A stretch of DNA of 58,990 nt from Acidobacteriota bacterium (lineage in GTDB: Bacteria; Acidobacteriota; Terriglobia; Acidiferrales; UBA7541). The translations under genes were made by a program, and so were the position numbers. Position 1 is the first letter of the stretch; the number at the start of each line of letters is the position of its first letter. The stretch lies in contig QHYZ01000091.1 of assembly GCA_003225295.1 (NCBI GenBank), positions 64,918-123,907 of the forward strand, in the 5' to 3' direction. Below the pieces are notes generated by a model. It ran no database searches and had not been told where the DNA came from. It saw only the letters and a list, made by a program, of their open reading frames with translations. Below are positions 2,532 through 4,468 of this stretch, piece by piece.

Positions 2532-2560
2532 TTGACATCTGCTACCGACTCAGGCATAAA
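2532..2560 (+). promoter_or_regulatory. Sigma-70 type promoter for the riboswitch/thrC-like operon
   Basis: A perfect -35 TTGACA (2532-2537) is followed after 17 bases by CATAAA (2555-2560); a TAAATA reading at 2557 is also possible. Transcription would start near 2567-2570, about 15 bases before the riboswitch helix. The order promoter, aptamer, terminator, gene is what a regulated leader needs. Confidence 0.65.
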
Positions 2561-2584
2561 TAACACAGCTGCGGTTGCGGCGAC

Positions 2585-2633
2585 ACGTGGCGATTTAGGG
2601 CAACTTGCTCCACGTAAAAAACTGCTAAAGAGC
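2585..2633 (+). promoter_or_regulatory. SAM-II-like riboswitch aptamer
   Basis: The segment matches the SAM-II pattern as I know it: P1 strand ACGTGG (2585-2590), then CGATTTA (SAM-II has a conserved GATTT here), a loop containing ACTTGC, the second P1 strand CCACGT (2610-2615, perfect 6-bp pairing), an A-rich stretch, and the conserved GCTAAAG (2624-2630). The pseudoknot helix P2 is not convincing by eye, so a covariance-model score is needed. SAM-II aptamers bind S-adenosylmethionine and usually control methionine-pathway genes. Here the GCTAAAG end does not overlap a ribosome site, and an intrinsic terminator follows 30 bases later, which points to control of transcription rather than of translation. 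Confidence 0.7.
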
Positions 2634-2662
2634 TTTTCGAGTTTCCCAGAAGATTTTCTGAG

Positions 2663-2694
2663 ACCCTCCGAGCACTTTGGCACGGAGGGTTTTT
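2663..2694 (+). terminator. Intrinsic terminator in the SAM-II/thrC leader
   Basis: ACCCTCCG (2663-2670) and CGGAGGGT (2683-2690) form a perfect 8-bp stem with a 12-base loop, followed by TTTT. It sits between the riboswitch and the coding start at 2830. A smaller stem CAGAA/TTCTG (2648-2660) lies just before it and could take part in switching. The likely role is SAM-dependent premature termination. Confidence 0.75.
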
Positions 2695-2829
2695 CGTTTC
2701 TCGCCTCCCTGCTGCCCTAAATCTCAACTGATCAATCGCCGTGAGCTGGTGATTTGGCTGTTCCGTGCTGGCCGCCGCTGGCGACCTTCTCGGAACACTG
2801 AAAACCGAAAACACCGAGGAATTCGCTAT

Positions 2830-4095
2830 ATGTGCTCCAATGCGCTTTACGAACTCCGATGTCGCGAATGCGGCAAGACCTGGGGTAACGTCCCCCGCTC
2901 GTTCTGTGAAGACTGCTTCTCACCGCTCGAAGTCGCCTACGATTACGCTTCCCTCAAGAAAATTGTCAGCCGCGAGAAACTCGTCGGCCGCGCCTTCAAC
3001 ATGTGGCGCTATTCGGAGTTGCTTCCTCTCCCGGAAGATTTCGGTGTTCCAAACGCCGTGGGCGGCACGCCGCTGGTGGCCTCACATAAGCTGGCCTGCA
3101 AGTGGGGCTTGCAGAATCTCTATTTCAAGAACGACGCCGTGTGCTTCCCTTCGCTCTCCTTCAAGGACCGCGTCGTCGCCACGGCGCTCGCCGCCGCGCG
3201 CCGCTTTAATTTCACCACCGTGGGTTGCTCCTCCACCGGCAATCTTGCCAACGCCGTCGCCGCGCAAGCCGCGCAACAAGGCTTCGACGCCTGCGTGTTC
3301 ATACCCGCCGATCTTGAGCCTGCAAAAGTGCTCAATACCGCGGTTTACGGCGCGCGCATCGTGCGCATCAACGGCAACTACGATCGTGTGAACCGCCTCT
3401 GCGCGCAAGTCGCGGACCGCTTCCAGTGGGGCCTCGTCAACGTCAACCTGCGACCGTATTACTCCGAAGGGTCGAAAACGCACGGCTACGAAATCGCCGA
3501 GCAGCTCGGCTGGGCACTCCCCGACAATATCGTCGTTCCCATGGCGGGCGGCTCGCTCATCACCAAGATTGCCAAAGCATTCCGCGAACTGGTCACCCTA
3601 GGCTGGGTCGAGCCGAAATCTGTGAAATTCTTCGGCGCGCAAGCAACCGGCTGCTCGCCCATCTCCGATGCGGTGAAGCGCAACCTTGCTCGCTTCGAGC
3701 CGCAGAAACCCAGTACCATCGCGCGCTCGCTGGCCATCGGTAATCCTGCCGACGGCCCTTTTGCGGTGAACCAGATCCGGGACTCCGGCGGCTGGGCCGA
3801 AGACGTCTCCGATCCCGAGATCGTAGCCGCCATCAAGCTCCTCGCCGAAACCGAAGGCATCTTCACCGAAACCGCCGGCGGCGTGACCACCGGCGTCACG
3901 CAAAAACTGATCGCCCAGGGGCGCATCCAGCCGCATGAAACCACCGTCGTCTCGATCACTGGCAACGGCTTGAAGACCACCGACGCCATCGTCTCGGAAT
4001 TCCCGGCCACCGAAGCGATCGCCCCGCACCTTGAGGCTTTCGAGGCTTACCTCGATGCGCGGCTCGGCACAGCCGCGGCCAGTGCCAAAGCGTAA
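2830..4095 (+). CDS. thrC: Threonine synthase-type PLP enzyme (ThrC-like), possibly a thiocarboxylate-dependent homocysteine synthase
   Basis: A 421-residue fold-type II PLP enzyme. Residues 1-35 form a zinc-ribbon-like head (C11, C14, C26, C29); the PLP lysine is K112 in SLSFKDR, and CSSTGNLANAVAAQA and GNPADG are typical of the threonine synthase family. Threonine synthase turns O-phosphohomoserine into threonine. The start at 2830 is chosen for its GAGGA site and because the frame upstream reads through the leader. Two context facts are odd for a threonine gene: a SAM-II-like riboswitch with terminator in front, and a ThiS/MoaD-type sulfur carrier 88 bases behind. CysM, a related fold-type II enzyme, uses the thiocarboxylated carrier CysO to make cysteine from O-phosphoserine. 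By analogy this enzyme could replace the phosphate of O-phosphohomoserine with sulfur. That is inference; ordinary threonine synthesis remains possible. Confidence 0.85.
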   Translation: MCSNALYELRCRECGKTWGNVPRSFCEDCFSPLEVAYDYASLKKIVSREKLVGRAFNMWRYSELLPLPEDFGVPNAVGGTPLVASHKLACKWGLQNLYFKNDAVCFPSLSFKDRVVATALAAARRFNFTTVGCSSTGNLANAVAAQAAQQGFDACVFIPADLEPAKVLNTAVYGARIVRINGNYDRVNRLCAQVADRFQWGLVNVNLRPYYSEGSKTHGYEIAEQLGWALPDNIVVPMAGGSLITKIAKAFRELVTLGWVEPKSVKFFGAQATGCSPISDAVKRNLARFEPQKPSTIARSLAIGNPADGPFAVNQIRDSGGWAEDVSDPEIVAAIKLLAETEGIFTETAGGVTTGVTQKLIAQGRIQPHETTVVSITGNGLKTTDAIVSEFPATEAIAPHLEAFEAYLDARLGTAAASAKA

Positions 4096-4183
4096 GTGGC
4101 GAAAGAACATCACGCAGTTTTGTTCTTCAGTTTTTTTGTTTGCTGAGAACTGAGACCAGATTCCATGCCAAGGAGATTCCCGG

Positions 4184-4468
4184 ATGCCCGTGACCATAGA
4201 AATCCCCACCGCCTTCCGTCGCTTCACCGACGGCGCACCGAAACTAGACTGTAGCGCGGCCACGATCGCCGAAGCCCTCGACGAGCTAACCTCCCGCTTT
4301 CCCGACCTCGGGCGCCATGTCCGCGACGATCAGGGGCAGATTCGCCAATTCCTCAATGTCTACCTCAATGAAGAAGACATCCGCTTCCTCGGCGGCGAAT
4401 CCTGCTTGCTCAAAGAAGGCGACCGCCTCCTCCTCGTTCCGTCCATCGCCGGGGGATCGGAACTCTAG
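4184..4468 (+). CDS. ThiS/MoaD-family ubiquitin-like sulfur carrier protein
   Basis: A 94-residue beta-grasp protein with AAGGAGA ahead of the ATG. It opens with a beta-strand (VTIEIPTAFRRF), has the central helix (TIAEALDELTSRFP), NVYLNEEDIRFL, and ends LLLVPSIAGGSEL. In this family a C-terminal Gly-Gly is adenylated and thiocarboxylated by an E1-like enzyme and then donates sulfur. Here the di-glycine is residues 90-91 and is followed by Ser-Glu-Leu, so a protease would have to trim it, as happens to CysO-type and HcyS-type carriers through JAMM-family peptidases. Size and NVYLNEEDIRFL are closer to CysO than to molybdopterin MoaD. It is presumably cotranscribed with the ThrC-like gene. Neither an activating enzyme nor a protease is in the window. 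Confidence 0.85.
   Translation: MPVTIEIPTAFRRFTDGAPKLDCSAATIAEALDELTSRFPDLGRHVRDDQGQIRQFLNVYLNEEDIRFLGGESCLLKEGDRLLLVPSIAGGSEL

Follow-up and report, generated by a model that had tools for sequence, protein, structure and literature searches.

Layout of the metM-metO locus

We analyzed a window of 58,990 nucleotides (nt), the whole stretch of DNA taken from contig QHYZ01000091.1 of an Acidobacteriota bacterium (assembly GCA_003225295.1; genome completeness 96%), in which a threonine synthase (ThrC)-like gene, here called metM, is followed by a ThiS/MoaD-like gene, here called metO. On the basis of strand reading and open reading frames (ORFs), a promoter, an aptamer resembling the S-adenosylmethionine (SAM)-II riboswitch, a terminator, metM and metO were found in this order, all on the forward strand (Table 1). 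An initial annotation, made from the letters alone, had proposed the same five elements in the same order, and sequence reading, profile matches and leader alignment recovered all of them. Among named loci, the closest MetM sequences (98% to about 85% identity) belonged to metagenome-assembled genomes (MAGs) of soil Acidobacteria, many of them gp2.

Table 1. Features of the metM-metO locus, with positions in the window (PLP, pyridoxal 5'-phosphate; P1, helix of the aptamer; R1, RNA model described in the text)
Feature	Position	Strand	Description	Basis
Promoter	2532-2560	+	-35 TTGACA (2532-2537), 17-nt spacer, -10 CATAAA (2555-2560)	Sequence reading; conservation
5' hairpin	2568-2581	+	GCUGC-GGUU-GCGGC near the presumed transcript start	Sequence reading
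SAM-II-like aptamer	2581-2647	+	P1 2585-2590/2610-2615; pseudoknot pairs 2599-2634, 2600-2633, 2601-2632; GAUUU, UUGC, GCUAAA; DNA motifs ACGTGG (2585-2590), GATTT (2592-2596), ACTTGC (2603-2608), CCACGT (2610-2615), GCTAAAG (2624-2630)	Rfam, R1, covariation
Intrinsic terminator	2663-2699	+	8-bp stem ACCCTCCG (2663-2670)/CGGAGGGT (2683-2690), 12-nt loop, T-rich tail	Sequence reading, folding, conservation
Conserved block	2713-2723	+	3' of the terminator; 11 nt match the complement of aptamer loop 2592-2602; possible anti-aptamer	Alignment, folding
metM	2830-4095	+	ThrC-fold PLP enzyme, 421 residues; probable O-phosphohomoserine-dependent homocysteine synthase	Profile matches, tree, neighbourhood
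metO	4184-4468	+	ThiS/MoaD/CysO-like sulfur carrier, 94 residues, GG then SEL	Profile matches, relatives

The -35/-10 pair and the 8-bp terminator were borne out both by the letters and by their invariance in 16 aligned leaders, all from the window's clade: CTTGAC at the promoter and CCCTCC...CTTTGGC...GGAGGG at the terminator were unchanged in every one of them. A consensus promoter scan of the leader reported no promoter, and we judged it too strict because its rule demands a T at the last -10 position. The corresponding terminator scan missed the hairpin at 2663-2690 and was also judged too strict, because it covers loops of 3-8 nt only and the loop here has 12. The stem of the 5' hairpin appeared, by eye, to be retained with different letters in some relatives. 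Judged from the alignment, the arrangement of the leader is beyond chance, with a near-invariant core conserved among relatives while the flanks vary.

A SAM-II-like RNA family upstream of methionine genes

To characterize the leader RNA, 16 leader copies of relatives and the window were aligned and turned into a model (R1) whose one helix is P1. The window scored 87.8 bits and was the sole match at E ≤ 1 in its genome, being itself a training row of R1. Sites matching R1 occurred in 48 of 396 Acidobacteriota genomes, a lower bound given the strict filters used. For 70 of these sites, which were retrieved, the downstream gene was defined as the largest ORF starting within 500 nt. The sites were mostly located upstream of methionine genes. 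The largest share (28 sites) preceded one linked group, whose four named representatives were MetH or a fused homocysteine methyltransferase-methylenetetrahydrofolate reductase, and 20 preceded PLP enzymes of Cys/Met metabolism (seven named, four of which were MetY-type homocysteine synthases over the TIGR01326 cut-off). MetM followed 11 sites, including those of the window and locus L034; single genes followed ten (one each MetX-like, aspartate-kinase-like and nitrite/sulfite-reductase-like, and seven others), and one site had no downstream ORF. The nitrite/sulfite-reductase-like gene (L144) is perhaps an assimilatory sulfite reductase. A peroxiredoxin-like gene also stood behind a SAM-II-like aptamer (L142), which is an odd target.

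Covariation was examined in 85 aligned sites. Two-sided changes were present in seven of the nine pairs formed by P1 and the three-pair pseudoknot, and in 500 shuffles the covariation score, the percentage paired and the numbers of changed pairs and changed cells never reached the values observed; the count of pair types was not significant (66 of 500 shuffles). It should be noted that the P1 counts lean towards the favourable side because the alignment was fitted to P1, and that the pseudoknot is absent from the model. For the pseudoknot alone, all three pairs showed two-sided changes (46 of 500 shuffles had as many) and the covariation score was reached in 1 of 500 shuffles. The pair adjoining the pseudoknot (2602-2623 in the window) had both sides changed in 15 cells.

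When 20 R1 loci were compared with all Rfam models, six exceeded the gathering cut-off of SAM_alpha and seven more had sub-gathering matches to SAM_alpha or SAM-II in that position. The RNA shares P1, GAUUU, UUGC, GCUAAA and the pseudoknot with SAM-II as represented in Rfam (RF00521 SAM_alpha and RF01726 SAM-II long loop), and L034 also passes gathering. The window-type form differs in its shorter junction (UUGCUCCACG), its linker and its sub-gathering score; moreover, it lies 183 nt before the start codon with a terminator in between, and tandem copies occur in the metM leaders of a second clade. With homologous sites reaching gathering, covariation in P1 and the pseudoknot, and methionine genes downstream, the SAM-II-like aptamer of the initial annotation was upheld. 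Its expected Rfam match was found in part, at the right place and below gathering for the window copy. On this comparative evidence, the window RNA appears to us to be SAM-II of a divergent branch, its junction being shorter than that of the sites that pass gathering.

MetM, its probable sulfur carrier and an apparent exchange of SAM sensors

The window enzyme matched Pfam PALP and the NCBIfam threonine synthase models, passing TIGR00260 (thrC, 264 bits, cut-off 167) and missing NF006050 (272 bits, cut-off 303), and its closest solved relatives were threonine synthases. The question of another thrC in the genome, raised at the outset, was answered by a second, canonical gene scoring 573 bits with NF006050. 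The motif [ST]TGNL was found in all 100 MetM rows examined (98 STGNL, two TTGNL), SFKDRV in 99 and EGSK[TS] in 97. Five solved ThrC sequences have STGNT (four) or STGDT (one), SFKDRG (four) or SFKDLG (one), and EGQKT, letters that the SFKDRV, STGNL and EGSKT of the window do not match; the genome's own ThrC also deviates from them in part (SFKARG, TAGNA, EGKKT). A search for actinomycete MetM in plasmids gave a Nonomuraea relative (L107; used as a proxy for MetM of Streptomyces albulus) with 54% identity, an adjacent MetO and SAM-I upstream, followed among the matches listed by sequences at about 35% and below.

The MetO of the window passed Pfam ThiS and matched SAMP1 and MoaD-family NCBIfam models below cut-off. 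Among solved structures, its best relatives were 4n6e, from the ThiS/MoaD family, and a carrier chain in 3dwg, taken to be CysO of Mycobacterium tuberculosis. Its C-terminus reads IAGG-SEL, and the SEL tail implies a protease. Wherever the row reaches the end of MetO, the protein finishes in GG, either with nothing behind it or with between 1 and about 38 further residues; in L070 the contig stops short of that end. The three Acidobacteria loci L010, L058 and L060 have about 28-38 residues past GG, with Cys-rich ends (CCSYCGQEEC). Among the 94 MetM loci not fetched by R1, MetO lay downstream on the same strand in 91; two of the others stop at a contig edge, and L006 has no MetO within 986 bases. 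The ten R1-fetched MetM loci contained MetO in three cases, and the other seven end 42-236 bases past metM. In L082, MetO is 1.7 kb from metM.

Candidates for sulfur transfer were found both elsewhere and in the same genome. In an Omnitrophota MAG (L069:5416-6483), the gene behind metM encodes a MetO-like carrier joined to a ThiF-type activating enzyme (E1), a natural fusion that, judged from its domains, ties the carrier to activation. In the window's genome, contig C223 (L187, G000:C223; positions 2253-5353) carries a cysM-JAMM-cysO-moeZ-like cluster, whose cysM-like gene is under the TIGR01138 cut-off. This set could also load and trim MetO.

Rfam detected SAM-I (RF00162) directly upstream in 11 of 18 MetM loci; another of these loci had SAM_alpha over the gathering cut-off. 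A SAM-I model (R2), built from ten of the MetM loci with RF00162, was used together with R1 to sort the 100 rows of the MetM tree, giving 53 with SAM-I, 39 with SAM-II, eight with neither and none with both. Excluding the ten rows fetched via R1 left 53, 29 and eight, respectively, that is, a SAM aptamer in 82 of 90 rows, which are not independent because many are close relatives. With these aptamers and with MetO beside MetM, like clusters recur among relatives, a check that the initial annotation had asked for. No SAM aptamer was detected beside the genome's other ThrC gene with R1, R2 or permissive Rfam searches.

Since SAM-I and SAM-II divide the MetM rows between them, two unrelated aptamers for one ligand precede the same gene in different lineages. 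On the MetM tree, a quick reconstruction with SH-aLRT (approximate likelihood ratio test) support only and long outgroup branches, from which the direction of change cannot be read, SAM-II requires two changes and well-supported branches force two; the window's clade joins SAM-I rows on a supported branch (98). Thus, judging by the tree, metM seems to have exchanged its sensor class on at least two occasions. The second SAM-II clade has 13 rows, and in nine of them (L034, L071, L078, L114, L118, L125, L143, L147 and L148) two SAM-II-like aptamers stand in tandem upstream of metM, 118-142 nt apart. In L143, a short-chain-dehydrogenase-like gene sits between the aptamers and metM.

Proposed homocysteine route and its alternatives

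The operon is, in all likelihood, one for MetM/MetO-type homocysteine synthesis under SAM control. A JAMM (Mec-like) protease would trim the SEL tail of MetO, and a rhodanese-domain E1 of the MoeZ type would then put sulfur on the exposed GG end as a thiocarboxylate. MetM, as a threonine-synthase-related PLP enzyme, would add this carrier-borne sulfur, instead of water, to O-phosphohomoserine, yielding homocysteine for methionine. Reportedly, MetM acts on O-phosphohomoserine together with thiocarboxylated MetO. When SAM is abundant, the leader would fold as a SAM-II pseudoknot aptamer and transcription would stop at the terminator, and when SAM is scarce the operon would be read through. The function proposed at the outset (a ThrC-fold enzyme, O-phosphohomoserine, carrier sulfur and SAM control) appears well supported by the comparative evidence.

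Two known routes are similar in part. The CysM-CysO-Mec-MoeZ system of M. tuberculosis makes cysteine with carrier-borne sulfur, a JAMM protease and MoeZ. A similar set is the one on contig C223, and the difference from the present operon lies in the product, cysteine, and in a carrier and PLP enzyme separate from MetO and MetM. The HcyS-HcyD-HcyF system with MetY of Wolinella likewise uses carrier-borne sulfur for homocysteine, but with a MetY-type PLP enzyme rather than one of the ThrC fold.

The closest precedent is that of Streptomyces. According to PMC12172450 (mSystems 2025), MetM serves Streptomyces as a homocysteine synthase, and cyanobacteria have homologues of it (citing Hasebe, Adachi, Maruyama and Hamano 2024, Appl Environ Microbiol 90:e01247-24), and S. 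albulus has metO and a SAM riboswitch upstream of metM. Because this system was published in 2024, the enzyme idea is already known, and the initial suggestion of a new branch of methionine synthesis had to be given up. The two systems are alike, going by that citation, in the ThrC-like homocysteine synthase, the adjoining carrier gene and the upstream SAM riboswitch; they differ in that the host here is an acidobacterium and the aptamer is SAM-II-like, whereas the actinomycete relative from Nonomuraea has SAM-I. In the literature covered (titles and beginnings of abstracts, with few subscription journals), no SAM-II in Acidobacteria and no SAM riboswitch with a threonine synthase were found beyond PMC12172450, and the available parts of PMC2864571 and PMC12452182 contained no report of either. 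As far as searched, the divergent SAM-II in Acidobacteriota, the SAM-I/SAM-II exchange on one gene and the conserved block past the terminator appear to be new.

Several observations weigh against SAM-controlled homocysteine synthesis, and they are considered here together with the alternatives. MetM could be a plain threonine synthase, with SAM control reflecting the O-phosphohomoserine shared by threonine and methionine, which we consider improbable. The TIGR00260 score above cut-off and the solved relatives are in its favour, and this model even ranks the window enzyme (264 bits) above the genome's other ThrC (179). In addition, PMC12172450 reports that a homologue from Microcystis, at 51.6% identity to S. 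albulus MetM, was active as threonine synthase and deaminase and gave only an unidentified peak near methionine. However, the second ThrC is far better matched by NF006050 than the window enzyme (573 versus 272 bits), only the window's gene of the two has a SAM aptamer, MetO follows MetM in 91 of 94 loci, and the residues beside the conserved motifs differ systematically. With a second ThrC in the genome and no SAM aptamer found on that gene, plain threonine synthase was set aside.

It is quite improbable that MetM makes homocysteine from some other activated homoserine or from free sulfide, with MetO dispensable or used by a different enzyme. In favour of this, sulfide is often accepted by PLP enzymes of the same fold, and a search for homoserine kinase, covering the TIGR00191 type, gave matches below cut-off only, which also leaves a gap in the proposed route. 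However, neither MetX nor MetA was found for making an acylhomoserine, and MetO nearly always adjoins MetM, with GG at or near its end. The best TIGR00191 match (L181) was rejected as ThrB, being IspE-like by eye, and further matches (L182 and L183) reached 21-22 bits.

The refuting conditions set by the initial annotation, among them a complete other homocysteine route and no second thrC, turned out mostly in its favour. Profile searches of the window's genome found no MetA, HcyBio or true MetX; the best MetX match (L178) was rejected since it passes the PRK06489 model NF005071 and has, by eye, a signal-like N-terminus, and two weaker matches were L179 and L180. On the other side, seven matches to Cys/Met-metabolism PLP enzymes were over the Pfam cut-off (four strong, three weak), so that there is room for another homocysteine route. 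For the four strong enzymes, none of the 25 best families shown passed its NCBIfam cut-off, and TIGR01326 (MetY) fitted in broken pieces. Across 297 Acidobacteriota genomes (thresholds E ≤ 1e-80 for MetM and E ≤ 1e-45 for MetX), MetM was present in 70 and MetX in 80; they occurred together in six, fewer than expected by chance (Fisher p 4.5e-5, uncorrected for kinship), a shortfall that speaks for the proposed route. Neither was present in 153 genomes, which, like the six with both, counts against the proposed route.

Other adverse points concern the RNA. At gathering, Rfam gave no match to the window aptamer, and in a permissive search of 411 bases it scored 23.3 bits with RF01726 SAM-II (gathering 44, E 0.033) and 20.7 bits with RF00521 SAM_alpha (gathering 36, E 0.017); therefore, the window alone is not proof of SAM-II. 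Seven of the 20 R1 loci had no SAM-II-type match to any Rfam model even at E 0.1, and in the eight MetM rows without a detected aptamer permissive Rfam searches also found nothing. That the leader is a look-alike regulatory RNA rather than a SAM sensor, for which the sub-gathering score and the short junction would speak, is nevertheless highly unlikely, given that the same family includes sites over the SAM_alpha gathering cut-off, heads methionine genes and is replaced by SAM-I in relatives.

The conserved segment beyond the terminator (2705-2725) also fits poorly with a plain termination switch, since a block made after the terminator cannot steer termination. It is conserved in the window's clade and could pair with the aptamer loop L1 (2592-2602), and its CCTCC is complementary to the 3' arm of the terminator. 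In the window, the complementarity to the loop is perfect over 11 nt, which none of 1000 single-letter shuffles equalled; it spans at least 7 nt in 14 of 24 leaders (at another place in L049) and 4 to 6 nt in the remaining ten. In the predicted fold of the full leader, from secondary-structure folding that cannot represent a pseudoknot, the block is paired and both aptamer and terminator are disrupted. A leaky terminator with a fold that acts later, or some other role of the block, would account for this.

A broader proposal joins these results: that both sulfur amino acids in these Acidobacteriota are built only from carrier-borne sulfur, with separate CysO and MetO and a shared protease and MoeZ; that metM went from one sensor class to the other, SAM-I or SAM-II, two or more times; and that the leader of the window's clade is a new type of SAM-II platform, whose post-terminator segment refolds with the aptamer loop. 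As a whole, we regard it as tentative and rather doubtful. Because metM passes the TIGR00260 threonine synthase cut-off, genomes using the MetM route may seem to lack a homocysteine enzyme. The SAM aptamer of either class found before most MetM relatives would be an annotation clue separating MetM from ThrC, and it opens the function to testing. Repeated sensor changes on a single gene would provide a clean case of convergent RNA regulation.

Two further features of the window lie outside the operon. A match to the group II intron D1-D4 model at 14916-15103 on the reverse strand was barely over gathering (36.6 versus 32 bits), and no reverse transcriptase was seen by eye among the surrounding listed ORFs of at least 220 residues. 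Upstream of the operon, at 69-1530, are genes for a sigma-70-family protein and a FecR-domain protein, resembling a sigma/anti-sigma pair.

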